From Kaistella flava (ex Peng et al. 2021) (GTDB lineage: Bacteria > Bacteroidota > Bacteroidia > Flavobacteriales > Weeksellaceae): 64,000 bases of DNA. Below the pieces are notes generated by a model. That model was not told where the DNA came from and made no database searches. It saw only the letters and a program-made list of their open reading frames with translations. This document shows positions 49,635-64,000 of the stretch, one piece after another (positions within the stretch are counted from its first letter, which is position 1; every line of letters begins with the position of its first letter). Position numbers and translations under genes: made by a program. The stretch covers positions 1,054,001 to 1,118,000 of the forward strand of contig NZ_CP040442.1 of the NCBI RefSeq assembly GCF_015191005.1, given 5' to 3'.

Positions 49635-49707
<73 letters not shown>

Positions 49708-49714
49708 CTAAGTA

Positions 49715-49745
49715 AAGAGAATCAAGAAATTGATTCTCTTTTTTT
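49715..49745 (+). terminator. Intrinsic terminator of tRNA-fMet
   Basis: Perfect 11-bp stem AAGAGAATCAA/TTGATTCTCTT, GAAA loop and a T run. Confidence 0.9.
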
Positions 49746-49898
49746 GTGGGGTTAAGTGAGGGTTTTGGAGATTCCCTATACTCTCTCCTATTATGATACT
49801 ATTCTAATAAATCTCAAATTATATAAAAGAAGACATACAATAAGGTAACGCATTTACTACTTTAGTGACCCATTCTAATTCTTAAAAAACCTACAAAA

Positions 49899-50160
49899 AT
49901 GAGAATCCTATTCTATATCAGAAGAAACAAAATCAATTCGAAAAATCTATACCCTTTAACCTTTAGAATTACTTTAGTTTCAAGGTAGGAAAGAATTTTC
50001 CACAGGTGTATTTATTAATCCTGATAATTAGAATAATATAAAAGTAGAAAAGATTTCCATGCACTACAGACCATAACTAAATCAATAACAACTAAGCCTG
50101 CTTAAACAATAAATTACCGAGGATTTTTTATTGCTACAGGTTCAGAAGATATTTAAATCT
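49899..50160 (+). pseudogene. Remnant of a tyrosine-type site-specific integrase (N-terminal part)
   Basis: ATG 49899 opens MRILFYIRRNKINSKNLYPL, then FRITLVSR, then a stop. A shift of frame gives RKEFSTGVFINPDN, a stop where family members have Trp, and later QLSLLKQ with stops on both sides and ITEDFLLLQVQKI. These are the arm-binding and SAM-like parts of Bacteroidetes mobile-element integrases. At least one frameshift and several stops are present, and the catalytic domain is missing. It lies 190 bp after tRNA-fMet, a usual place for an integrase. Confidence 0.75.
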
Positions 50161-50292
50161 TACAAAGAATTAAGACCACATGCCAGTTGTGATTATTTAA
50201 CCCCAATACAAGCACATCTAAAATCTGGAAAATTAAACAAGAGATGGAAGAATTATTATAAACGTTTTAACTTTGAAAATACAAGTGTATAG
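50161..50292 (+). pseudogene. Remnant of an IS3-family transposase (C-terminal end)
   Basis: Directly continuing the integrase remnant in frame is LRPHASCDYLTPIQAHLKSG, then KLNKRWKNYYKRFNFE and a stop. The RPHAS...LTPxQAH...KRWKNYY pattern is the end of IS150/IS3-type transposases (integrase catalytic core). The rest of the gene is absent, so a deletion joined the two mobile-element genes. Confidence 0.75.
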
Positions 50293-50335
50293 TTATGTCA
50301 GGATTTACCTATTAATCTGTATAGCTATTTCAGGA
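50286..50335 (+). repeat. Two 18-bp direct repeats (TGTATAGyTATkTCAGGA), likely IS end
   Basis: Copies at 50286-50303 and 50318-50335, 16 of 18 bases identical, spaced by 32 bp. They begin inside the stop codon of the transposase remnant, so they are probably the right end of the former insertion sequence. Confidence 0.6.
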
Positions 50336-50352
50336 CGGGTCCCCAAAATGAC

Positions 50353-50418
50353 GCTTCATACATACCTCATAGATACTTCATGGATAAAGCATGGATAGTT
50401 CATGACGAGTTCATGAAA
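50353..50418 (+). repeat. Six degenerate 11-bp tandem repeats (consensus AnTTCATGGAT)
   Basis: Six successive 11-nt units keep CAT at the same place: GCTTCATACAT, ACCTCATAGAT, ACTTCATGGAT, AAAGCATGGAT, AGTTCATGACG, AGTTCATGAAA. The period equals one helical turn, so a protein could bind along one face. The rest of 50419-50914 has no gene that I can support; a hairpin (AAATCCCT/AGGGATTT) lies at 50757-50788. Confidence 0.65.
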
Positions 50419-50911
50419 ACGAAATCACCATAAAAACAATTTTTCTCTAAAAAAAGAACTTCCAAAATTCCTTACAGAATACAAATTGGTTTTTGAGTTT
50501 CATTAATTCCTCCATTAAGCCTTAATGTTGAAAAAATATAGGTTCATTTTTTAGGATCAAAAACAAAACACGATCGAATTCTTCGGCAGAAATAAACTCA
50601 AAGTGTTCAACAATAAATCCTAATAGAAACAATTGAAGTAATTCAAAGCTATTGATCATTTAGCAAAAATAACATATCCATCATTTGTCCCTAAATTTTG
50701 TGACTGGTTCGTTTTAAAATCGATTCAAGAAGTACGGAAAGAAATTATAACAAAAAAAATCCCTAAAAGTATTAACTTATAGGGATTTGGGCGGAGAACT
50801 AGGTTTTCCTTATTAAAACTAATAGAAACCAATAAGCAAATACCGTATTGATTATCAATTATTTATAAACATTTATACTCAAGTAGAAGTTACCAAAAAC
50901 CAATGAACAAC

Positions 50912-50950
50912 TCCCAATTTAGTCCCTGTTTTTTAAGTAGGGACTAAATT
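50912..50950. repeat. Hairpin CCAATTTAGTCCCT/AGGGACTAAATTGG, left flank of abiE
   Basis: Perfect 14-bp stem around GTTTTTTAAGT. A degenerate second copy (TAGTCCCTGTTTTTTAATAG, then AGACTA) lies at 53100-53127, on the other side of the abiE pair. Confidence 0.7.
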
Positions 50951-51232
50951 GGAAGTTACTCCATTTTTATCAGTCAGTAATCCTTTTCATTTTAGAACAT
51001 TCACCGAATCTAGATTATTTTTCTCACAGAGAGAAATGAAGTTTGGTTTCAAAGCAAATAGAAATGAGAAATTTATAAAAATCAATCTTTTAAATGTAGA
51101 AAAATCAGAAACATCAACCCTGCGGATTTTCCTTCATTTTAACAGATGTCAGCAACAGCAATTCTATTTCTTTATATTAAACTGAAATATTGTATTTCCA
51201 ATTAGAAATTATTTAGTCCTCAACTCTATTTC

Positions 51233-51259
51233 GTCCCAAATTTTTATTATATTTGGGAC
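51233..51259. promoter_or_regulatory. Probable AbiEi operator (GTCCCAAAT/ATTTGGGAC) over the abiE promoter
   Basis: Perfect 9-bp inverted repeat with a 9-bp spacer. The -7 element TATATTTG at 51248-51255 overlaps the right arm, and the ATG is at 51264. AbiEi antitoxins are known to repress their own operon by binding inverted repeats, which fits. Confidence 0.75.
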
Positions 51260-51263
51260 TATT

Positions 51264-51869
51264 ATGAGACCAAAAGTTGAACAACATATTTCAGATCAAA
51301 TAGATACCCTAGAAAATGGAGCAATCTTTTTTGTGGATGATTTTTTAGATTTTGGAACCTCGGAAAGTGTAAAAAAAGCATTGCTCAGACTTGAAGAAAA
51401 ACAAAAAATCAAAAGACTATCTCACGGTATTTATTATAAGCCAAAACTCAGTAAAATTATTGGAGAACTTATTCCATCAATCGAAGATATTGCAAATGCT
51501 ATTGCAAGAAGAGATCACGCAAGAATAATCCCGACTGGTGCTTTTGCAGAAAACATATTGGGATTAACAACACAAGTTCCCATGAAGTTCACATTCCTCA
51601 CAGATGGTGCTGCGAGAATTATTAAAGTGGGCAACCGAACAATCAATTTCAAATCTACAGTTCCTAAAAATTTATCTACAAAAGGAAAAATTTCTACTTT
51701 GGTTATTCAAGCTTTGAAACAAATAAAAAAAGACAATGTAGATGAAATTACTCTGAATAAAATTTCTGAACAATTGAAAAATGAAGAAGAAAATAATATT
51801 CTTCACGATGCTAAACTTGCTCCAGCGTGGATCAGAGAAATCCTTTTAAAGTCCCTCAATAATGAATAA
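51264..51869 (+). CDS. abiEi: AbiEi-type antitoxin (DUF6088 family)
   Basis: Antitoxin and autorepressor of a type IV toxin-antitoxin system. The 201-residue protein has an N-terminal winged helix (about 10-58, FGTSESVKKALLRLEEKQKIKRLSHGIYYKP), the pattern common to AbiEi-like proteins, and a C-terminal domain of about 130 residues. It overlaps the toxin gene by 8 bp, so the two are translated together. The operator-promoter overlap upstream supports autoregulation. Confidence 0.87.
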   Translation: MRPKVEQHISDQIDTLENGAIFFVDDFLDFGTSESVKKALLRLEEKQKIKRLSHGIYYKPKLSKIIGELIPSIEDIANAIARRDHARIIPTGAFAENILGLTTQVPMKFTFLTDGAARIIKVGNRTINFKSTVPKNLSTKGKISTLVIQALKQIKKDNVDEITLNKISEQLKNEEENNILHDAKLAPAWIREILLKSLNNE

Positions 51870-52869
51870 TTGGTTTACATTAACAGAACAGCAACAATTC
51901 GAAATAATCAATGAGACTTCTGCTCAGCTTGGCTTTTCCGACGTGGTCATCGAAAAAGATTGGTGGGTTTGTATGGTTTTAAGAGCTGTATTTCAATCGA
52001 AATATAATACACACATCGTTTTCAAAGGAGGAACGTCATTAAGTAAAGCATATGCTGTTATTGAACGGTTTTCCGAAGATGTTGATTTAATTGTTGATTA
52101 TCATTTTCTTGGTTTTGATGATTTTAAATCGAAATCGCAAATAAAGAAACTTCGCAAAGCTTCAGGACATTTCGTTATTGGCGATTTCAGAGTAGAATTG
52201 ACTGAGCAACTTAAAACATTAGGAATTCCGGAAGAAATGTTCATCATAGAATTTGACCCAAAAATTGATGATACAAGTGACCCCAATACATTGGAATTAT
52301 CATATCAATCAGTGGTTCCAAGTGAAACCCACATTCAAAAGAAAGTGATTATTGAGATGGGCGCAAGAGCTCTATCAGAACCTTCTGAGAAAAGAAAAAT
52401 AAGTTCATACATCGATCAGAGTTTTAAAGGATATGAATTTGCTTTTCCTGAATTTGAGGTGGAAGTTACCATTCCAACAAAAACATTTCTGGAAAAAGTT
52501 TTTCTTCTGCATGAAGAATTTTCAAAACCCCTAGAGAAAATTAGACATCATAAATTGAGTCGTCATTTGTATGATTTAGATCGGCTCATGAATTCTGAAT
52601 ACGGTGAAAAAGCAATTACCGACAAAGATCTTTTCAATAAGATTGCTAAATTTAGAGAACTGATGAATAATGTGAGAGGGATTTCTTTTGAAAATCATAA
52701 AAGAGATCAACTCAACATCATTCCGCCAGCGGAAGTTATTGATCTTTGGGAAGCAGATTACAGACAAATGCAGGAAAATATGATTATAGGCGAAAGTTTA
52801 TCATTTTCAGATTTAATTGAAAAATTAAAATTAATACAAGAAAAATTCAAGGAAATACCAAACACCTAA
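51862..52869 (+). CDS. abiEii: AbiEii/AbiGii nucleotidyltransferase toxin
   Basis: A 335-residue toxin of the DNA polymerase beta-like nucleotidyltransferase fold, which by family knowledge modifies tRNA or other targets to stop growth, as in phage abortive infection. The signature FKGGTSLSK with the acidic pair in RFSEDVDLIV (about residues 52-77) is intact, and EKDWWV lies just before. The C-terminal helical domain is present, so it looks complete and active. Confidence 0.9.
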   Translation: MNNWFTLTEQQQFEIINETSAQLGFSDVVIEKDWWVCMVLRAVFQSKYNTHIVFKGGTSLSKAYAVIERFSEDVDLIVDYHFLGFDDFKSKSQIKKLRKASGHFVIGDFRVELTEQLKTLGIPEEMFIIEFDPKIDDTSDPNTLELSYQSVVPSETHIQKKVIIEMGARALSEPSEKRKISSYIDQSFKGYEFAFPEFEVEVTIPTKTFLEKVFLLHEEFSKPLEKIRHHKLSRHLYDLDRLMNSEYGEKAITDKDLFNKIAKFRELMNNVRGISFENHKRDQLNIIPPAEVIDLWEADYRQMQENMIIGESLSFSDLIEKLKLIQEKFKEIPNT

Positions 52870-53099: not shown

Positions 53100-53127
53100 A
53101 TAGTCCCTGTTTTTTAATAGAGACTAA
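53100..53127. repeat. Degenerate hairpin TAGTCCCTGTTTTTTAATAG..., right flank of abiE
   Basis: Shares the run TAGTCCCTGTTTTTTAA with 50919-50936 and the complementary arm with one change. Together the two copies bracket the toxin-antitoxin genes. Nothing else is recognised in the 320-bp gap 52870-53189. Confidence 0.65.
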
Positions 53128-53189
53128 ATCATAGTAAATTTATGAAATAATCTTCAAAAAAACCACATCATATCAGCAAGTTGACCATT

Positions 53190-53933
53190 TTAAACACTGG
53201 TTTCGTTATCTATATCAAAATTATTACTCCGCATACAATTTTCTAAATCTTTTAAATCTTTTATGGAATTCTGATACTCTTTCTGTTTGAGTTCATATTC
53301 TAAAACCACTTTTTGCTGTGAAAAGCGGTCTTTCAGTAAGGTAATTTTCAAATCCTTCAGTTCTTTGATGCTGATTGAATTGCCCATGTTTTGAGTCCAC
53401 CTTTTTTCGTTTATTTTTCTTTCGTAGTTTTCAGTAAGGTCTTTCCGGGTGTATAAGTCCAGCATCAAATGAAGATAGGTCATATCAATATCAAGAACAT
53501 TTACTCTGGGGCGCAAATAAATAAAATGATGGGTGGCAACATAGTTTTTATCGGCATCCATTAAAAACTTTTTTCCAGAGAATCCTCTGGGTTTACCTCG
53601 GGTGTAAATTAGAAAATCATTTTCCTGAATGACTTTACTTTCAGTTACTGTTTTAAGCTGAACATCTTTTGCTGTTTTCCTTTTTGCTTTTGTTCGGGAA
53701 ATTTCTTTAGGATTCTCAGATTGATGCTCCATCATTAATACCCCGTCTTCGGTAAAAGAATTTATTTTCACAAATTCGACCTTCTCTTGTTGATCTGTAG
53801 TTATTGCTGAATATTTATCTTCAACAATCCCAGCTTGTAGGTCAAACAGATCGCCGAATGAGTATTCTTTGGTTTCATCATTTTTATCTTTGAAATCGAT
53901 CATAAGTAGAAGCAGTAAAAAAACTCCAGTCAT
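53190..53933 (-). CDS. Orphan type I restriction S-subunit-like protein (single TRD)
   Basis: A 247-residue protein with one target-recognition domain (about 30-195): YSFGDLFDLQAGIV, TRGKPRGFSGKKF, YVATHHFIYLRP and a helix with WTQNMGNSISIKELKDLKITLL, the usual end of an HsdS TRD, then a coiled-coil spacer (about 195-235). Normal HsdS has two TRDs and over 380 residues, and no hsdM or hsdR is present. Two starts are possible, 53933 (hydrophobic first ten residues) or 53903 (MIDFKDKND), which I find as likely. It may be a DNA-binding protein in its own right. Confidence 0.75.
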   Translation of the reverse strand: MTGVFLLLLLMIDFKDKNDETKEYSFGDLFDLQAGIVEDKYSAITTDQQEKVEFVKINSFTEDGVLMMEHQSENPKEISRTKAKRKTAKDVQLKTVTESKVIQENDFLIYTRGKPRGFSGKKFLMDADKNYVATHHFIYLRPRVNVLDIDMTYLHLMLDLYTRKDLTENYERKINEKRWTQNMGNSISIKELKDLKITLLKDRFSQQKVVLEYELKQKEYQNSIKDLKDLENCMRSNNFDIDNETSV

Positions 53934-53950
53934 TGTAATTTAATTTGATG

Positions 53951-53958
53951 CAAATATA
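53951..53958 (-). promoter_or_regulatory. -7 element TATATTTG of the orphan S-like gene
   Basis: Exact TAnnTTTG match on the minus strand, 18 bp from the first possible ATG. Confidence 0.6.
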
Positions 53959-53984
53959 CACATTTTACACTGAAATAAAAACAA

Positions 53985-54001
53985 TTACACAATTTGTGTA
54001 A
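53985..54001. promoter_or_regulatory. 17-bp palindrome TTACACAATTTGTGTAA between divergent promoters
   Basis: Eight-bp perfect arms around one base, midway between the minus-strand -7 at 53951 and the plus-strand -7 at 54031. A half-site (TTTTACAC) recurs at 53963-53970. A dimeric regulator binding here could control both sides. Confidence 0.7.
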
Positions 54002-54030
54002 AAATAATACTTTATTTGTAAAAAATATAT

Positions 54031-54038
54031 TATGTTTG
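54031..54038 (+). promoter_or_regulatory. -7 element TATGTTTG of the accessory operon
   Basis: Exact TAnnTTTG match 55 bp upstream of the ATG at 54094. Confidence 0.6.
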
Positions 54039-54093
54039 CAGAACGATAATTGAAAATTCATTTCAATAACACTAAATCTTAAAATAATTAATC

Positions 54094-54537
54094 ATGGAAA
54101 ACACCGCAACAGCAACACACGAATTTGATTTTGATATCAACAAAATCGACATCATTGATTTAAAAAAATTGTACACTCATTTTGAGATAGAAAATTTTGG
54201 TGATGCTGATGCTGATAGTGATACGATTCTTGACCATCAATCATTCTTTAAACTTTATGAGGATACTGATGCTTTTTTACTGATCCGAATTGCAGCATTA
54301 TTTTCTTCTAATTCAGTAAAAATAATTGAAACAGAATATTATAAACGTGATTCGAAAACTGAAACTGTTTTTGTTGATGAAGTTCACGAAAATGCAAACC
54401 ACATCTTTGAACTTGATGCAGCTGATTATCATCACTTCGACGCAGCATTTTTCAACTTTGCAAACGTGTTGCAGATGTACGGAGTTGAAGAAGCCGCTCC
54501 TATTTTGGAAAAATATAGTTTTCTAAAAAAACTCTAG
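54094..54537 (+). CDS. Unknown acidic protein, first gene of the recDCB-associated run
   Basis: A 147-residue, strongly acidic soluble protein (FDFDINKIDIIDLKKLY, GDADADSDTILDHQ). No signal peptide, membrane helix or recognised domain. The C-terminal YGVEEAAPILEKYSFLKKL looks helical. It has a clear promoter and divides a divergent control region with the orphan S-like gene. Low pI and small size would suit a DNA-mimic or inhibitor, but this is speculation. Confidence 0.75.
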   Translation: MENTATATHEFDFDINKIDIIDLKKLYTHFEIENFGDADADSDTILDHQSFFKLYEDTDAFLLIRIAALFSSNSVKIIETEYYKRDSKTETVFVDEVHENANHIFELDAADYHHFDAAFFNFANVLQMYGVEEAAPILEKYSFLKKL

Positions 54538-54688
54538 TAAACCGTGTATTATTATATACGAAATCGCTCCCGGATCAAATCAAAGAATATTAATTACTAA
54601 ATATGTAATAAATCATTAATTTAAATCAAAATATTCCGTTAAAAGTTAAAAATTATTTGTATTTATGTAACCTAAAAAAAAATAAACT

Positions 54689-55606
54689 ATGAAAAAAGAT
54701 AATCTGTTAAAGAAAACCGAAGTATTGGCAAAAGCGATAGCAATGTTGGCTCCATTATACCATGATAAAAATTTAGATGAATCTCAAAGAGGTTTGCTTG
54801 AGACGCTTATAGGTGCAGGAATTTGGTATCTGCCAAACAGCAAAGTTTTATTCAGTGGAAAAATCAGTAAAGCTGCGTTGGAAGAAATAAAAATTGATTC
54901 TAAAGTTAAATTGGTGCAAGAGCATGGATTCCCAAGAAAGGTTGCCGGTAATAAATTGTTTAACGAGCATTTAATTCAAATCATCAAAGATACCGACGCG
55001 TTATGTAATCTATTTCTTGAAAAATTTGGTAGATATAATTTAGTTTTAAAAGAGGAGAATCTTCAATTAAAGAAATATCAGAAAACTGCGCTGTTTGTTT
55101 CTGAAGATGAAGCTTATAAATTGGCTGGAATTGAATTGGTAGATTTAGCAGATGAGCATTTTAATTTTCCTCAATTAAAAAAATATATGATTAAGGAGAT
55201 TGAAATTATTGAATCCGAGGAAATGGAAGATTTTGACACAAAGGAGGAACAAAAAACTACAACATTACCTAAGAAATCGTCCCTTCAGATGGATGAAAAT
55301 AAAGTCGAAAAGGTAATGGACAGAAAAATCTTTAATTTAAGCGAGAACGACAAAAACGCCGCTCAGCAATATAAAAGATTTATACAATTTGTCATCGATA
55401 ATTTTAGCCATCGGTTAGAAGAGAATGAAACTTTAAAAAAATATTTCACTCGTGATCAACTTGATGATGTTTTAGGAGCAGCAAGAAATTACGACCGAGT
55501 AAAATCACATGAGGATTATTTTTACAGTAACCATTTAGGCAAAAAAGAACAGCAGGTAAGAATAAAAAGAATTGCAAACGAATTACAAATAGAATTAGTT
55601 GCTTGA
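54689..55606 (+). CDS. Unknown 305-residue protein with EHGFPRK motif
   Basis: A soluble protein in two parts: residues 1-160 mixed alpha/beta, and 215-305 helical, joined by an acidic linker (about 170-210). The motif LVQEHGFPRKVAG (EH at 78-79, PR at 82-83) has the look of a small nuclease or nucleic-acid-binding motif, but there is no support beyond that. It lies 151 bp after the previous gene and 45 bp before the SEL1 gene on the same strand, so the three may be one transcript. Confidence 0.75.
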   Translation: MKKDNLLKKTEVLAKAIAMLAPLYHDKNLDESQRGLLETLIGAGIWYLPNSKVLFSGKISKAALEEIKIDSKVKLVQEHGFPRKVAGNKLFNEHLIQIIKDTDALCNLFLEKFGRYNLVLKEENLQLKKYQKTALFVSEDEAYKLAGIELVDLADEHFNFPQLKKYMIKEIEIIESEEMEDFDTKEEQKTTTLPKKSSLQMDENKVEKVMDRKIFNLSENDKNAAQQYKRFIQFVIDNFSHRLEENETLKKYFTRDQLDDVLGAARNYDRVKSHEDYFYSNHLGKKEQQVRIKRIANELQIELVA

Positions 55607-55651
55607 TAGAACCCAATTAAGAATCTTCAACCATTTAAAAAAATAACAATT

Positions 55652-57034
55652 ATGCCAGACAAAGAAGAAACACAAAACGAAACTGAAAAAAGAATAATTA
55701 ATCTAACAGACCTTGCTCTATATACTGATACTCCTTTTGAATCAGACATTACCGACTCCATGCTTGAACTTTCACATCTATACGAAAATGGTGTAGCTGG
55801 AGAATTGGAGGCTGATAAAGAAAAAGCACATTATTGGACTGAATTATATACTAAGAAAAAAGTAAATAATTTATCAGAAAGAGCATTAGAAAATGATAAT
55901 CTTCTTGCAATGTTAGAACTTGCAGAATTATATGATAATAAACTTGCAGGCGAGAAAGAAGAAGATGAAAAGGAGGATCAAGCCAATTACTGGAGGTCAC
56001 TGTACAATGAAAAAAATGGAGATTATCAATTAGGAAATAGGCGTGAACATGAAGCCACTTATGCGGAAAGATTTCCATTTCTTGCAAAAGATGCAATCAA
56101 GGGAAATACCGAATCAATGGTAAAACTTGGCTTAATGTATAGAGATAGCATAGTGGGTCAAATTAATTATTGGAATGCTTCCGATGTCGTTGAATTATTT
56201 GAAAAAACGATGGCAGGTGATGTTCAATCAATGCATTCATTGGGAGAAATGTACTTTTACGGTCAAAATGTAAAAGAAGATGAAGTAAAAGGATATCATT
56301 GGCTTAAGAAAGCGGCAGATTTAGATTACGTTCCATCTATATTACAATTAGCGGAACTACAGAACTCTGGAATTGAAATTGAAAAGGAAAATCATACTAT
56401 TAAAGAGTTATTTATTAAAGCTGCCCAATTAGGTTCTGATGAGGCGAAAAGATGTCTTGTCGTTATTTGCCACGAAGATAAAAACGAAGAAGAAAAAGAA
56501 AAATGGTTGCAGGAGATTTTGCAAACGACCGATTCAGAAGTTATGAAAGCAATCGGCTACTTCTATTACAACGGAGATATAGTAGAAAAAGACCACAATA
56601 AAGCCATACAATGGTTTGAAAAAGCCGCAGAAAACGGTAACTTCATGGTGATGAATACTTTAGCTAATATTTACAAGAACGGGAAAGGAAATATAAAAAA
56701 AGACGTAGAGAAAGGTGAATATTGGAATGACAGACATTGGGATTTTGAAATAGATTATAGCGAAATAAACAAATTTCATCTTCCTAAAGAAAATTTTAAT
56801 AAAGCAATGTATTGGTTTAAAAGAGCTGCAGCCGAAAATAATGTTGATGCAATCTTTAACGTTGGTTTGCTATATGATAATGCAGTGAATTGGGGAGGCG
56901 ATTTTATGTGTGATGAAAGCTGCATGTTCTTAGCCAGAAAGTGGTTTAAAAAAGCAATCAGTTTAGGACATGAAGAGGCAAAAGAAGGTTTGAAATACCT
57001 TATTTCGGATATGGAAGACTGCGAATTGATTTAA
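55652..57034 (+). CDS. SEL1-like repeat protein
   Basis: A 460-residue protein made of about eight SEL1-type (TPR-like) repeats. Typical units include MHSLGEMYFYGQNVKEDEVK and VMKAIGYFYYNGDIVEKDHN, with A-hWFEKAAENGN and MYWFKRAAAENN turns. No signal peptide, so it is cytoplasmic, unlike many exported SEL1 proteins. Such repeats bind partner proteins. Placed directly before recD (80-bp gap), it may be an adaptor for the complex. Confidence 0.88.
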   Translation: MPDKEETQNETEKRIINLTDLALYTDTPFESDITDSMLELSHLYENGVAGELEADKEKAHYWTELYTKKKVNNLSERALENDNLLAMLELAELYDNKLAGEKEEDEKEDQANYWRSLYNEKNGDYQLGNRREHEATYAERFPFLAKDAIKGNTESMVKLGLMYRDSIVGQINYWNASDVVELFEKTMAGDVQSMHSLGEMYFYGQNVKEDEVKGYHWLKKAADLDYVPSILQLAELQNSGIEIEKENHTIKELFIKAAQLGSDEAKRCLVVICHEDKNEEEKEKWLQEILQTTDSEVMKAIGYFYYNGDIVEKDHNKAIQWFEKAAENGNFMVMNTLANIYKNGKGNIKKDVEKGEYWNDRHWDFEIDYSEINKFHLPKENFNKAMYWFKRAAAENNVDAIFNVGLLYDNAVNWGGDFMCDESCMFLARKWFKKAISLGHEEAKEGLKYLISDMEDCELI

Positions 57035-57114
57035 AAAAACACAAACTACTGGTTTTTTAATCGTTTCATTAATAAAATCAAAAACCTACCTTATAATTAC
57101 AAATCTACCATTTC

Positions 57115-58938
57115 ATGGAAAACACACATAAGCTCCATCGTCATTTTGCCTCATACTTTAATGATCAACTTGTTGAACCTTTCGTTTACGTTTTGTCAAA
57201 ACGAATGGAGAATGGACATATCTGTATTCCAGTAAACAGCAGTATTGATGAAGAATTGAAAGAAGGTGGCTATTTAAAGCAACAATCTTTCAAAGATTCT
57301 TCTTTAGTAACTTCGAATGAAACAGATTTAAAACCCTTTGTTCTTTTTAATGATAAATTTTATCTGCAACGCTATTTTCAGTATGAAACTACTATTTTAA
57401 ACCGTTTAGAATCACTCGCTAAAAGTAAAGGTAAATTTACAGAAAGAAGTGAAGCATTGCGTTCACAAATCGATTTTATCCGTGAAGAGATTTCACCTGT
57501 TGAAGACCTTTCCAGTTATTCAGCTGAGGAAAAACCCGACTGGCAAGCTGTCGCTGCAATACAGGGGGTACTGAATAATTTAACGATTATCACGGGCGGA
57601 CCAGGAACGGGTAAAACTACCAGTGTTGCGAAAATCTTAGCACTTCTTAAAAAAACTGAAGGCGATCAATTGAAAATTGCTTTAGCTGCACCAACCGGTA
57701 AAGCTGCGGTGAGAATGAAGGAATCACTTTTGGCCAGCGTCATTCAATACAAAGGTTTGAATATTGAAGATGTGGTGAATAAAACCGAACCGAAAACACT
57801 TCACCGATTATTGGGAACCAATTTAAATTCTCCATTTTTCAAACATAACAGCACTAATCCACTACCCTATGATGTCGTAATTGTAGATGAATCTTCTATG
57901 ATCAGTGTTGCGATGTTTTCAAAATTGTTAGCGGCAATTGGTGAAAATACACGCATAATTATTCTCGGTGATTCAGAACAGTTGGCCTCAGTCGATGCCG
58001 GAAGTTTATTTGGAGATGTTTGTCTTTCTCAAAAAGAGACAGAAAATCAATTTGCTAATGAGAATCTAAAGTTGATTAATTCATTAATTCAACCTGATAG
58101 AGTTGTCTCATATGTTCTAGAAAAGCCTGATAATTTTCTGAATCAGCATTTGGTTCGATTGAAGAAAACGTATCGCTTTGATCAGAATTCTAAAATGGGA
58201 AGGTTTACGCAAGCCATTATTAAAGGAGAATCGGGGCAATTGGAATCGATCATCAATTCACCAGATGATGATTGCTTATTTGTTGATTACGATTATAAAA
58301 CAACTTTTTTTGAAAACTTTTTAAAGAAATACAAAGCCTATATTGAAGAAGTTAATATAGAACAGGCACTGATTAAATTAAATAACTGCAGAGTTTTATG
58401 TGCGAACAGAGAGTCAGAACAAGGTATTTATAAAGTAAATGAACGCATCCAAAGTTTTTTGAAAAGGGAGTTCGCCAATCAGATAGGGCTATTTAATCCT
58501 TCAGGCGAGTTATATCATAATCAGTTGATTATGGTTACAAAAAACCAACCCGATTTGAATTTGTTTAATGGAGATGTTGGCATTGTTCGGAGAGATGATA
58601 AAAATAAATTAAAAGTATATTTCCCACAGTTACAGTCTAATTCGGTTCAGGACGAAAATAAAAAGTATCATGTTGTTACGCCTGGATTTATTGAACAGTG
58701 GGAAACCGTTTTTGCAATGACCATTCATAAAAGCCAAGGTTCAGAATTCAAGGACGTTTTTGTGATGTTGCCAAAGAATCAGGATAATCGGATTTTAACG
58801 CGCGAACTACTATATACCGGTATTACAAGAGCAAAAGAGCGTGCCTATATACAAGGCACTTTAGAAGTCATAGTGGCGACCGCCGACCGTTTTGTAAATC
58901 GGGTGTCAGGAATTAAAGAACGTATTCAAAATAATTAA
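57115..58938 (+). CDS. recD: Exodeoxyribonuclease V alpha subunit RecD
   Basis: Fast 5'-3' SF1 helicase of RecBCD. The 607-residue length equals that of E. coli RecD. Walker A GGPGTGKT is at residues 161-168, Walker B VVIVDESSM at 255-262, then ILGDSEQLASVDAG (motif III), TYRF (motif IV), TIHKSQGSEF (motif V) and YTGITRAKE (motif VI). All helicase motifs are intact. The stop lies 4 bp before recC. Confidence 0.95.
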   Translation: MENTHKLHRHFASYFNDQLVEPFVYVLSKRMENGHICIPVNSSIDEELKEGGYLKQQSFKDSSLVTSNETDLKPFVLFNDKFYLQRYFQYETTILNRLESLAKSKGKFTERSEALRSQIDFIREEISPVEDLSSYSAEEKPDWQAVAAIQGVLNNLTIITGGPGTGKTTSVAKILALLKKTEGDQLKIALAAPTGKAAVRMKESLLASVIQYKGLNIEDVVNKTEPKTLHRLLGTNLNSPFFKHNSTNPLPYDVVIVDESSMISVAMFSKLLAAIGENTRIIILGDSEQLASVDAGSLFGDVCLSQKETENQFANENLKLINSLIQPDRVVSYVLEKPDNFLNQHLVRLKKTYRFDQNSKMGRFTQAIIKGESGQLESIINSPDDDCLFVDYDYKTTFFENFLKKYKAYIEEVNIEQALIKLNNCRVLCANRESEQGIYKVNERIQSFLKREFANQIGLFNPSGELYHNQLIMVTKNQPDLNLFNGDVGIVRRDDKNKLKVYFPQLQSNSVQDENKKYHVVTPGFIEQWETVFAMTIHKSQGSEFKDVFVMLPKNQDNRILTRELLYTGITRAKERAYIQGTLEVIVATADRFVNRVSGIKERIQNN

Positions 58939-58942
58939 CAGC

Positions 58943-61900
58943 ATGTCGATCATCCAGTATACTACCACAAACAATAACGACTTAGCTCAGCAATTTGCTG
59001 CAAGTATCAAAAAAGAAAATAGCATTTTTACCCCCATATTCGTAGGTATTTCAAATAATGAAACCAAAGAGTGGCTTGTAGAACAAGTGGCTGAATACAA
59101 CACCATTTCAGCCAATTTTGTTTTTAAAAAACCGCTGCAATGTGTTGAAATGATTCATCAGATTCTGGGACTGGGAAACTCCAGAAAAGAGCTTCTTCAA
59201 TCCAGTCAATTAAACTGGATTATTTTTTCTATTCTTAAAAAAGAACAATTTACAAGGCAGTTTCCAACGATAGCCAACTATTTTTCCGCAGATGATTTAA
59301 AGCGCTTTACTTTAGCCGAGAAAATAGCCAGTTTATTTTCTAAATACCAGGAGTTTGATCAAAATCTAATCAATAAATTAGAAGATGAAACAGGAGAAAA
59401 TAATGAAGAACATATTCGCTGGCAGTCTTTTATATGGAAACAGCTCAATCAAATTGCCAGCAATAACTTCAGCTCGCTCTCAAAAATGTATCAGGAGATT
59501 CTTGCTCATTTAAGTGGGAATTTAGACCATCAAAAAATCTTAACTCAAAAAATACCTTCACTTTATTTTTATGGAACTGTTCCTTATACCACCGATTTCG
59601 TCAATTTTTTAGTTGAGTTAGGGAAATATATTGATATTCAAATATTTAGATTAGATCATGATTCTGACACCTATTCCTGCAGACTCTACGAAACACTTTC
59701 CGGCTTTCAGAAGAAACAGGCTCCTTTATTCAATGGTATCATCACTGAAAAATTACCGGTATCAGTTTCACAGGCTGAAAACACTTTATTAAGTTCCGTT
59801 CAACAGGAATTAGTAGGTTCGAATACTGTTAATTATGCTTTTAACGAAACGGATGACTCTATTCAAATTACCAATAATTATTCGGTTTATAGAGAGGTTG
59901 AGGCTTTATGGAATTATTTGATTACTCAATTTGATGCCGATAAAAATCTACAGCAACGTGAAGTTTGTGTGATCATTCCTTCATTTGAAAAATATGCTCC
60001 TGCAATTAAAGCAATTTTTGGAAACGATCATCTGAAATTTGACTATTCTTTTTTCAACACCAGTTATAAAATCCAGGATTCTCCTTACAAGGCATTATTG
60101 GCGTTGTATGCTATGGATGAAAAAGAATTTACTTCTAAGCAGGTTTTTGGATTATTAGAATATAAGTATATTCGAGAGAAATTTGGTTTTGCAGAGGATT
60201 TAGAAACGATCAAACGTGCGATATATTTGGCTAATATCCGTCACGGAATAGATGGAGATATCGAATTAGAAACTGATATGGTCTCTTGGCGATATGGTTT
60301 AAAACGATTAGTTTATGGCGGTTGTATAGAGAACACTGATGAACTCCTCACTTTTGCCGATACCGAATTTTATCCTGTTTCTGAATTTGAAGACGGCGAC
60401 TTTTTTGAAATAATTCGGTTAAATCATTTTGTAGAAACACTCTATGACTGGGTAAAATTAAAAGAAGAAAAACGCAGTTTGTTTGACTGGATCAAACATT
60501 TAGAACGAACTATCGAAAACTTCATCAACATTGAGGAACAGGATCCAAATGTGTTTAACCGACAATTAGACGGATTGATGAAAGTAAGAGATTTGGTTAG
60601 TGAAGATGTCCCTTTCGCAGTTATACATTATCATTTGAAAAAACTTTTCGACAATTTAGAACAGTCTGAAAAGATAGGTTACGGTGGTATCCGTTTTATT
60701 TCTCCAAATCCAAATATTGCTGTACCTGCTAAAATCTACTGTTTCCTGGGAATGAATGGAAACGAATTTCCAAGATTAAGCCGCAAATTAAGTTTTGATT
60801 TACTTTCGGAGGAGAAAGAATTTAGTGCCTCAGGATTAGACAAAAATATGTTTTTGAACTTAATTCTTGGGGCTGAAGAAAAATTATACATCAGTTACAT
60901 CGGACAGAGTGTTACAGACAATTCTTCCATTCCGCCAAGTACCTTGATTGAGGAATTAACTGATGCTTTAAAAAAATGGGGAATTCCGAAAGATACTTTT
61001 ATCGCAAAACATCCTCTGCATTTGTTTAGCACAAAATACAATCAAAACGATCCGCGCTTGATTCGATTTTCAAATTCAACCAAAGAAGAAATTGAAAAAG
61101 CGGCAGTCTCCAATTTTGCAAATTTAGAATTAGAAAAAGATGCTGAAGGAAATAAAATTATTCCACTTCACAGTTTGATTCGATTTATTGAAGATCCAAT
61201 TCGTCATTATTACAATAGGGTTTTAGGTATATATTATTCAGATAGAACAATAGATCTGGAAGACTGTGAACCTTTTGCATTAAGTCACTTAGAGAACTGG
61301 AGTATTAAAGATGATTTATTAAAAAAACGATTGCAAATAAATCAAGATGATGAAACTTCTGTTCTGGAAAAAAAGCGTAGAGGAAAGCTTCCATTTAGAA
61401 ATTTTGGTATTGCTCCAATAAGTGAAAACATGAAAGAAGTTGATTCACTATTAGCTAAATTACCACATTGGTTTTCAGAAACAGTTAATAGATCAGTACC
61501 TATTAACTTTGTTTGTAATCAATACAGAATTATAGGGAACATTGATGGCGTTTATGATGATAAGTACCTTTTTGCTACGGTATCAACTGATAAATGGAAA
61601 TATAGAATCCGTTCACTAATCAATTTTATGGTGTTAACTCTTTTTGACACTAGTAAAACCCAGGGTTCTTATATCCATAAGAAAGACCAAAGTCCTTTAA
61701 ATAAAAAGGAAGATTTTGAAAATAACTTGATTCAGTTATGCGAACTATTTGAACGAGGGTCATCAGAATTAATTCATTTTACGAGTGATTTTATAAAGAT
61801 TACGGCAAAAAAAATGGATACTTATTTAAGTGCTACTGATCTCGAAGAATATTTTCACAGTCAATTAAACGCTCCTGAACCCTCAAAAGTATATGCCTCT

Positions 61901-62017
61901 GAATATTTTACAAGAGAATTAAAGAATGGTTTTTTAGATGAAGAACAGGCATTTGATCAATTTAAAACGACTTACATAGAAATAATAGGAATAGTTGAAT
62001 CTGGATTACAAGAATAA
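58943..62017 (+). CDS. recC: Exodeoxyribonuclease V gamma subunit RecC
   Basis: Scaffold and Chi-reading subunit with an inactive helicase-like fold. The 1024-residue protein has recognisable RecC segments: LQCVEMIHQILGL at the N-terminus, FYGTVPYTTDFVNFLVELG and DILQREVCVIIPSFEKYAPAI-like DKNLQQREVCVIIPSFEKYAPAIKA, YGGIRFISPNPNIAVPAKIYCFLGMNGNEFPR in the helicase-like part, and HLENWSIKDDLL in the C-terminal nuclease-like domain. It is about 100 residues shorter than E. coli RecC. 2 bp separate it from recB. Confidence 0.9.
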   Translation: MSIIQYTTTNNNDLAQQFAASIKKENSIFTPIFVGISNNETKEWLVEQVAEYNTISANFVFKKPLQCVEMIHQILGLGNSRKELLQSSQLNWIIFSILKKEQFTRQFPTIANYFSADDLKRFTLAEKIASLFSKYQEFDQNLINKLEDETGENNEEHIRWQSFIWKQLNQIASNNFSSLSKMYQEILAHLSGNLDHQKILTQKIPSLYFYGTVPYTTDFVNFLVELGKYIDIQIFRLDHDSDTYSCRLYETLSGFQKKQAPLFNGIITEKLPVSVSQAENTLLSSVQQELVGSNTVNYAFNETDDSIQITNNYSVYREVEALWNYLITQFDADKNLQQREVCVIIPSFEKYAPAIKAIFGNDHLKFDYSFFNTSYKIQDSPYKALLALYAMDEKEFTSKQVFGLLEYKYIREKFGFAEDLETIKRAIYLANIRHGIDGDIELETDMVSWRYGLKRLVYGGCIENTDELLTFADTEFYPVSEFEDGDFFEIIRLNHFVETLYDWVKLKEEKRSLFDWIKHLERTIENFINIEEQDPNVFNRQLDGLMKVRDLVSEDVPFAVIHYHLKKLFDNLEQSEKIGYGGIRFISPNPNIAVPAKIYCFLGMNGNEFPRLSRKLSFDLLSEEKEFSASGLDKNMFLNLILGAEEKLYISYIGQSVTDNSSIPPSTLIEELTDALKKWGIPKDTFIAKHPLHLFSTKYNQNDPRLIRFSNSTKEEIEKAAVSNFANLELEKDAEGNKIIPLHSLIRFIEDPIRHYYNRVLGIYYSDRTIDLEDCEPFALSHLENWSIKDDLLKKRLQINQDDETSVLEKKRRGKLPFRNFGIAPISENMKEVDSLLAKLPHWFSETVNRSVPINFVCNQYRIIGNIDGVYDDKYLFATVSTDKWKYRIRSLINFMVLTLFDTSKTQGSYIHKKDQSPLNKKEDFENNLIQLCELFERGSSELIHFTSDFIKITAKKMDTYLSATDLEEYFHSQLNAPEPSKVYASEYFTRELKNGFLDEEQAFDQFKTTYIEIIGIVESGLQE

Positions 62018-62019
62018 AC

Positions 62020-64000
62020 ATGGAAGAATTTAAAGTGGAATCAGTTGATCTTTCGGGAGCAAATATTATCGAAGCCAGTGCAGGAACCGGCAAAACATTT
62101 TCGATTGCAGTATTGGTAGTTCGATTATTGGTTGAGAAATGGATACCAATCGAAAAAATGTTGTTGGTTACTTTTACGGAATCAGCAGCTGCAGAATTAA
62201 AAGAACGTTCTATAAAATTCATAAGAGAAGCCCTGTTAGAAATAGAGAACTCTGGATCATCCGGAAATGAAATTATTAAGGGAGTGGTAGAAAATGCGCT
62301 TAACAATAATCAGACGAGTGCTGACATTGAAAATAGACTTCGCAAAGCCTTGTTGAACATTGATAATGCGATGATGTGTACAATTCATAGTTTTTGCCAG
62401 CAAACGCTGAATGAATTTGCTTTTGAAACCAATCAGATTTTTGGTAAGGAATTAAAATCGGATATTTCAGATATTGTGACGAAACATACGAATGGATTTA
62501 GACGCGCAGTTTTAAATATAATAAATCCTGAATTATTCGAAATAAGCGAATTAAGCAATGAGAAAATCTTAACTGGAATCATTAAAAATGCTTTAAGTGG
62601 ACAAAAACTTCACGGAGATCATGCTGAAGTTCATTCTCTTTTAGAGTACAATCAAGAGTTAGAAAAGATAAGAGATGCCACAATTGAATATTTGCAAAAC
62701 AGCAAAGATTCAATGACTAATACTATAAATAATTATGTAAAAAAGGGATACGGCAAAGCATCAGCTTTATCTAAAATTGAAGATAATAATAAACTATTAA
62801 TTTATTTTGAGCTAGATGCAGATAAAATAAAATTTGATTTTAACGATCTTTTCCCAATTGAAATTGCAGAGTGCAAAAAGAATAAACAGGAAAGAGACCT
62901 TTATTCCTGCTCGACTAAAAATGTTTTTTTTCAGCAAGCCATCGACTGGATCCTTCCAAAAGTTAAGCAAGAATTGAAGTCTAAAAACCATTTCACCTTT
63001 GATGATTTAATCGATCAATTACACGGATCGCGAGACAAGGATGCGCTAAAGCTATTAATGAGAGCGAAGTATGATGCTATTTTTCTTGATGAATTTCAGG
63101 ATACCGATAAAAAACAATATGCTATTTTCAAGGAAATTTTCCAACACGATCCTTCCAAAATAATTTTCTATATCGGTGATCCAAAACAATCTATATACGC
63201 CTGGAGAAAAGCGGATTTAAATACCTATTTCGAAGCACGAAACGCTATCGTCTCGGAAAAACGTTTTACGATGAAGACGAATTTCCGGTCCACAACAAAT
63301 TATATCGATGCTTTAAACAAGTTTTTCCTGCCCAACACTGATTTCGATACTTTCGAAAATGGTGCAGTAGAGGGTCACCAAAAAATAAAATACGAAGTTG
63401 TAAAAGCAAAACAACAAAATGCTGAAGGCCTCAATATAGATAACAAGTTGCTTTCCCCATTAACCATAATTGATGGATATAAGAGTGAGGAAGAGGTCAA
63501 CGCTATAGTACGAAAAACCATTCGACATTTATTAAAAGGAGACGTGACCTTAAATAAAAAACCTTTAAAACCTTCTAATATCACTATCTTAATCAGAACC
63601 AATCGTGAAGGAAAAACACTAAAAAGAATACTGGAAAGTGAAAATATCCCTTCCGTAATTTTGGATGACAGCAAAGTGGTTCAGTCAGCAGAAGCAAATG
63701 AATTATTGTTTATCCTGCAAGCGATTCTTAATCCAAAAAAAGCAGCCATTCAAAAGGCGTTTCTAACTTCTGTATTAGGGAAAAAAGTTATTGATCTAGA
63801 AGATATTGATTTCGATTATTGGGTTGAAAAATTTTCTACCTATCAAAAAAACTGGACAAAAGACGGTATTTTTGTAGCATTAAATCAGGTGATTAATGAT
63901 TTTAATTTGATAGCAAAAAACCAGTCAGATATCACGAAAGGACATCGAATCCTTTCGAACATCAGGCAATTATTAGAGTTGCTGCAGGAAAAAGAACAGA
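62020..64000 (+). CDS. recB: Exodeoxyribonuclease V beta subunit RecB (partial, runs off the window)
   Basis: Open from ATG 62020 to the window end: 660 codons. Walker A EASAGTGKTFS is at residues 18-28, VTFTESAAAELKERS follows, Walker B FLDEFQDTDKKQ is at residues 355-366, then IGDPKQSIYAWRKAD (motif III) and NFRSTTNYI (motif IV). No stop or frameshift seen. The remaining helicase motifs and the C-terminal nuclease domain lie beyond 64000, so nuclease activity cannot be judged here. Confidence 0.95.
   Translation, partial: MEEFKVESVDLSGANIIEASAGTGKTFSIAVLVVRLLVEKWIPIEKMLLVTFTESAAAELKERSIKFIREALLEIENSGSSGNEIIKGVVENALNNNQTSADIENRLRKALLNIDNAMMCTIHSFCQQTLNEFAFETNQIFGKELKSDISDIVTKHTNGFRRAVLNIINPELFEISELSNEKILTGIIKNALSGQKLHGDHAEVHSLLEYNQELEKIRDATIEYLQNSKDSMTNTINNYVKKGYGKASALSKIEDNNKLLIYFELDADKIKFDFNDLFPIEIAECKKNKQERDLYSCSTKNVFFQQAIDWILPKVKQELKSKNHFTFDDLIDQLHGSRDKDALKLLMRAKYDAIFLDEFQDTDKKQYAIFKEIFQHDPSKIIFYIGDPKQSIYAWRKADLNTYFEARNAIVSEKRFTMKTNFRSTTNYIDALNKFFLPNTDFDTFENGAVEGHQKIKYEVVKAKQQNAEGLNIDNKLLSPLTIIDGYKSEEEVNAIVRKTIRHLLKGDVTLNKKPLKPSNITILIRTNREGKTLKRILESENIPSVILDDSKVVQSAEANELLFILQAILNPKKAAIQKAFLTSVLGKKVIDLEDIDFDYWVEKFSTYQKNWTKDGIFVALNQVINDFNLIAKNQSDITKGHRILSNIRQLLELLQEKEQ

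Follow-up and report, generated by a model that had tools for sequence, protein, structure and literature searches.

A putative composite defence island in Kaistella flava: RecBCD, BREX and a candidate S-plus-nuclease module

RecBCD and AddAB are reported by one survey to occur together in only 16 of its genomes (PMC6452273). GmrD is reported to carry the residues D113, H114, N169 and N178 (PMC4619093), and HKD nuclease C-termini are described on type 1 BrxL proteins of bacteriophage exclusion (BREX) systems in a large BREX survey (PMC12839542). Here we analysed a 64,000-nucleotide stretch (the window; C1:1054001-1118000) of the single-contig 3.72-Mb genome of Kaistella flava (ex Peng et al. 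2021), in which a half-size type I specificity (S-like) gene and genes for 147-aa (amino acids), 305-aa and Sel1-repeat proteins lie ahead of recD, recC and recB. We tentatively favour, with confidence that falls somewhat short of even, a composite defence island as the explanation, its mechanism included. Such an island would have three parts: a complete RecBCD of horizontal origin, alongside the AddAB-like pair that the host retains; a complete type-1-like BREX, which lies downstream and includes a GmrSD-like gene of its own; and a small module of the S-like half-HsdS, the 147-aa and the 305-aa protein.

The rec genes at the end of the window were the following.

recD, 57115..58938, + strand: 607 aa; TIGR01447 430 bits (cut-off 310); helicase motifs
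recC, 58943..62017, + strand: 1024 aa; PF04257 and PF17946 above their cut-offs; TIGR01450 397 bits, under the cut-off of 583
recB, 62020..64000, + strand, continuing 1385 bases past the window to C1:1119385: 1121 aa in all

An earlier note on this DNA had described an acidic 147-aa protein, a 305-aa protein, a SEL1 protein, recD, recC and recB in one direction, with 2-4 bp between the rec genes; all seven genes of the block, the S-like one included, proved to lie where it had placed them, with gaps of 4 bp (recD-recC) and 2 bp (recC-recB). The windowed part of RecB scored below the curated recB model (381 bits, cut-off 696) and above the Pfam cut-offs for PF00580 and PF13361, and the full-length protein contained an intact Walker A, DEFQDT and GLVD...DWKS nuclease motif, so that RecD, RecC and RecB are all present and intact. 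The window truncates the locus, since recB ends 1.4 kb outside it and is followed by a complete BREX cluster.

This gene set is rare among the relatives of the host. A recC match was found in this genome only among 296 sampled genomes of the order, and RecD matches in 296 sampled genomes of the family were confined to this genome and G458 (45%), plus a weak match in another helicase (G402, dropped from the count as a weak helicase match within a 1237-aa frame). No recD match was found in the other genomes of the genus in the family sample (at least 20). The family relative G458 carries the full recDCB, and the set is therefore rare in the family rather than unique. In the phylum sample recC was present in 129 of 395 genomes, of which only this genome and G017 belong to the class of the host. 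In both G458 and G017 recDCB stands alone amid ordinary genes, and nothing in the stretches compared matched the remaining proteins of the block. A single-sequence scan of genome contigs with RecC found no relative, and RecC matches in plasmids (39 records) were all below 60% identity, reaching at most 27% among the 20 matches listed.

An AddA-like helicase was present in 36 of 36 genomes of the genus, and the host itself encodes an AddA-like UvrD helicase-nuclease, matching the NF010485 and addA models under their cut-offs, and, elsewhere in its genome, an AddB-like PD-(D/E)XK protein. The two genes are not adjacent, and the name AddAB is therefore given by resemblance only. The addAB that the note had suggested looking for has its counterpart in the AddAB-like pair. 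The objection it raised against itself, that recDCB might be the housekeeping nuclease of the genus, falls with the absence of recDCB from the other sampled genomes of the genus and the presence of that pair. RecBCD is here an acquired second enzyme: its rarity among relatives was computed, and we infer horizontal acquisition as such.

The BREX cluster lies about 6 kb beyond recB, outside the window, on the minus strand (C1:1125047-1140402), in the order BrxA, BrxB, BrxC, PglX, a GmrSD-like protein (PF07510 match), PglZ and BrxL. PADLOC matches for BrxA, BrxB, BrxC, PglX, PglZ and BrxL in one cluster identified it as type 1, and its PglX showed weak type I methylase matches. BrxL (L008:8047-10146) is 699 aa long.

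Upstream of the rec genes, the block comprises the features listed here.

S-like half-HsdS, 53190..53933, - strand: 247 aa; one target recognition domain (TRD) and two long helices
Divergent control region, 53934..54093, no strand: 17-bp palindrome at 53985-54001; boxes at 54031 (+) and 53958 (-) matching TAnnTTTG, which we take to be the promoter consensus
147-aa acidic protein, 54094..54537, + strand: isoelectric point 4.48; six relatives, three of them on contigs equal in size to an S-like-bearing contig
305-aa protein, 54689..55606, + strand: N-domain about 1-165; C-domain about 208-305, SeqA-like
Sel1-repeat protein, 55652..57034, + strand: 460 aa; Pfam PF08238 E 1.1e-36

Sequence libraries were blank for the S-like protein, with no above-cut-off match in Pfam (DuOB 0.019 only), NCBIfam or PADLOC for it or the relatives scanned. 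The fold search of its predicted model nevertheless returned the TRD fold of a type I S subunit at half size, confirming the label of a single-TRD HsdS-like protein. The genes scanned, which run from window 51264 through the BREX cluster, included no HsdM or HsdR beside it, the rest of the genome lying outside that search. Five close S-like proteins open with a leucine-rich run (e.g. MTTVYLLLLLLLLKM; window 53900-53933), unless the start codon is set too early. Searches of PDB sequences returned no match for the S-like protein or its relatives scanned, and nothing convincing for the 147-aa protein, the 305-aa protein or its C-domain. The computed isoelectric point agrees with the acidic nature claimed for the 147-aa protein.

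The N-domain of the 305-aa protein showed conserved E/D78-H79, N117 and N124, with the H/N/N residues kept in 86 or 87 of 87 homologues and a strand-strand-helix order in the predicted model. It is likely an HNN His-Me-finger nuclease, judging by this signature. Alignment with hhalign to GmrD/DUF1524 (21 of 24 rows in the GmrD alignment, the three weakest omitted) gave a score above controls but weak and unstable with subsets, and Pfam returned no match. A fold search with the 305-aa model found no credible match for its N-domain in PDB; HNH nucleases were absent among the matches listed, which excludes nothing. The best match of the 305-aa model among viral models was a 196-aa protein (E 0.054, prob 0.97). 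The SeqA-like C-domain may sense methylation. The earlier view of the upstream genes is supported in that they include unknown proteins with a DNA-acting look.

The S-like and 305-aa genes were associated beyond this locus. Two peptide patterns run against 84,980 species genomes yielded five other 305-family loci (L047-L051), and an S-like gene lay near the 305-family gene in three of the six loci read (the present one, L048 and L051), recognised with a profile built without L051 (L048 1e-7, L051 2e-18). None was found near the 305-family gene in L047, L049 and L050. A DUF2779 gene separates the two in L048; in L049 (Mongoliitalea lutea; L049:9998-20425) the 305-family gene is directly upstream of the Druantia III genes DruH and DruE; and L050 carries a DUF2130 gene resembling that of the present locus (54%). 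Contigs of four matching sizes also bring the S-like gene together with the 147- or the 305-aa gene, which suggests further pairings beyond the loci read. A protein of 185-191 aa (LVIHPEDVSTDFL / LIIHPEDPTTTFL near its start) was noticed downstream of the 305-family gene at L051:6570-7127 and L050:11776-12351; the L050 copy had no Pfam match, and neither copy had a strong PADLOC match.

At least 87 members of the 305-family are catalogued. The family is rare in genome collections: it occurred in 1 of 395 phylum genomes, in 1 of 17 in the family of G818 (judging by its length, 26995 bp, the same contig as L048) and in 3 of 295 class genomes, including the present one and one weak match (G924, 7e-6 within a 1034-aa frame, which we left out). 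No 305-aa protein was found in plasmids and phages, and scans of viral contigs with alignments A2, A5, A4 and A6 (A6 comprising 30 of the 87 homologues plus the window protein) gave no confirmed relative. The unit with comparative support is the S-like gene plus the 305-family gene, joined by the 147-aa protein in close relatives.

Beyond recB follow genes for a 178-aa protein, a WYL regulator, a DUF2130 protein, proteins of 115 and 208 aa, of which the 208-aa one reads by eye as von Willebrand A, and a protein of 395 aa. Past the BREX cluster, at L044:7475-11669, lies a run of genes (191, 219, 298, 301 and 177 aa) related by eye. On the other side, ahead of the S-like gene and outside the module, is a further defence pair of the same island.

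AbiEi/AbiEii toxin-antitoxin pair, 51264..52869, + strand: PADLOC AbiEi 4.5e-72, AbiEii 5.8e-99

Two similar inverted sequences around AGTCCCTG...AGACTAAA / GGGACTAAA flank this pair (50917-50951 and 53101-53129) and resemble terminators or a boundary repeat, and the 1.5 kb at window 49709-51263 lack any open reading frame of at least 80 aa (GC 0.289), perhaps as a degraded insertion. The genome is collinear with G504 (92% identity between the AddA proteins) up to window 49155, where this ends, and the following 190 kb contain only four scattered matches of at least 200 bases to the 400 kb of G504 compared. A tRNA-Met (window 49635-49708) directly follows the last syntenic gene; G504 has an identical tRNA sequence about 69 kb beyond the point where synteny ends, as well as a further copy at a different place, and the region is therefore a large variable hotspot. 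The end of the tRNA-Met was rejected as an attachment site, 18-base pieces of it (starts 1 to 56) having no second copy in 240 kb of the genome's own sequence.

In the composite island that we tentatively propose, the S-like protein, probably dimeric, would recognise a DNA sequence, the SeqA-like domain of the 305-aa protein would sense the methylation state of the strands, and the HNN domain would nick or cut DNA lacking the host mark. The opened DNA would then be degraded or stalled by RecBCD (and BREX). This scheme presumes nuclease activity, complex formation and dependence on methylation by the adjoining PglX, and the passing of cut ends to RecBCD would be an attractive further step.

Several other explanations were weighed. 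The S-like and 305-aa proteins might instead be DNA-binding regulators or anti-restriction factors, the former a decoy or repressor and the latter a SeqA-like methylation reader, through which recDCB or BREX would be expressed at a set level. SeqA itself binds DNA and is no nuclease, and DNA mimics are acidic, as is the 147-aa protein; the divergent promoter region bears a palindrome, and a WYL regulator lies downstream. The near-invariant H/N/N residues, however, suit a catalytic site. The palindrome that the earlier note saw in a shared control region is real (TTACACAATTTGTGTAA), but its length is not clearly above chance, being reached in 181 of 2000 shuffles of the same 160-bp region, and neither the rest of the window nor L008 contained a copy with up to three mismatches; we rejected it as proof of shared control. 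We regard this reading as unlikely.

We also consider it unlikely, at roughly one chance in five, that the block is one operon-like transferable machine, as the earlier note had proposed, in which the S-like, 147-aa, 305-aa and Sel1 proteins target, license or guard RecBCD. The genes from 54094 through recB are co-directional, with gaps of 151, 45, 80, 4 and 2 bp, recDCB is rare among relatives, and the S-like, 147-aa and 305-aa proteins each have relatives on contigs of the same length, 8500 bp, which could accommodate recD too. The 151- and 80-bp gaps, however, could hold separate promoters, and the solitary recDCB of G458 and G017 argues against a single machine. The co-occurrence that this idea predicts failed to appear, as no relative of recB, recC or recD was found in the DNA compared at any of the five other 305-family loci (0 of 5), three of which (L048, L050 and L051) end at contig ends.

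A bolder version of the proposed mechanism is restriction free of a dedicated methyltransferase, in which the half-HsdS would guide a two-domain nuclease that recognises hemi- or unmethylated DNA by its SeqA-like domain and cuts unmarked DNA, the ends would pass to a dedicated, co-acquired RecBCD, and the BREX methylase would supply the self mark; we hold it to be quite improbable. Least probable is that functionally unlinked bystanders have come together in a variable region, namely a redundant recDCB and an orphan half-S surviving from a type I system that has decayed. This would suit the scattered G504 matches and the gene-poor stretch ahead of AbiE, but the reading frames are open, the checked Rec motifs are intact, and the S-like gene is met again beside 305-family genes (two named loci) and, on contigs of four sizes, together with the 147- or the 305-aa gene. 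Best supported is a small putative S-plus-nuclease module that adjoins the acquired RecBCD and BREX and is bound to neither.

Apparently new here are the pairing of the S-like and 305-aa proteins and RecBCD as cargo beside BREX; our literature search, which mostly did not extend to subscription papers, found no published account of this gene set. The locus indicates that RecBCD can be an accessory of a defence island in a host already holding AddAB, and that a type I specificity fold may function without its usual methylase and motor. It also brings forward a nameless family with catalytic-looking conserved residues that adjoins BREX here and directly precedes Druantia III elsewhere. Should the 305-aa protein prove to cut DNA according to how it is methylated, it would add a new effector to the known nucleases and might serve as a tool for reading methylation.

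The locus resembles several described systems and departs from each. Like the auxiliary nucleases of BREX, HNH types included, its nuclease genes adjoin a BREX core, whereas the main text of that survey holds no word starting with RecB, and no pair of the S-like/305 type is described in its section 35 part 1 (PMC12839542). The (E/D)H...N...N of the 305-aa protein aligns in register by hhalign with the GmrD/DUF1524 HNH nuclease of GmrSD and BrxU, but its N-to-N spacing is 7 compared to 9 in GmrD, and no DUF262 half was seen. Its C-domain differs from the DNA-binding domain of SeqA in having no sequence match to it and in being joined to another N-domain. In contrast to the type I half-HsdS and Esub1 (PDB 8vsq/8vsr), at 11-18% identity, the S-like protein has no adjoining HsdM or HsdR and is paired with a 305-family protein. 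RecBCD (exodeoxyribonuclease V) itself is matched in its three subunits, the order recD-recC-recB and the intact helicase and nuclease motifs, but here it is an accessory carried in a defence island, and the host has an AddAB-like pair as well.
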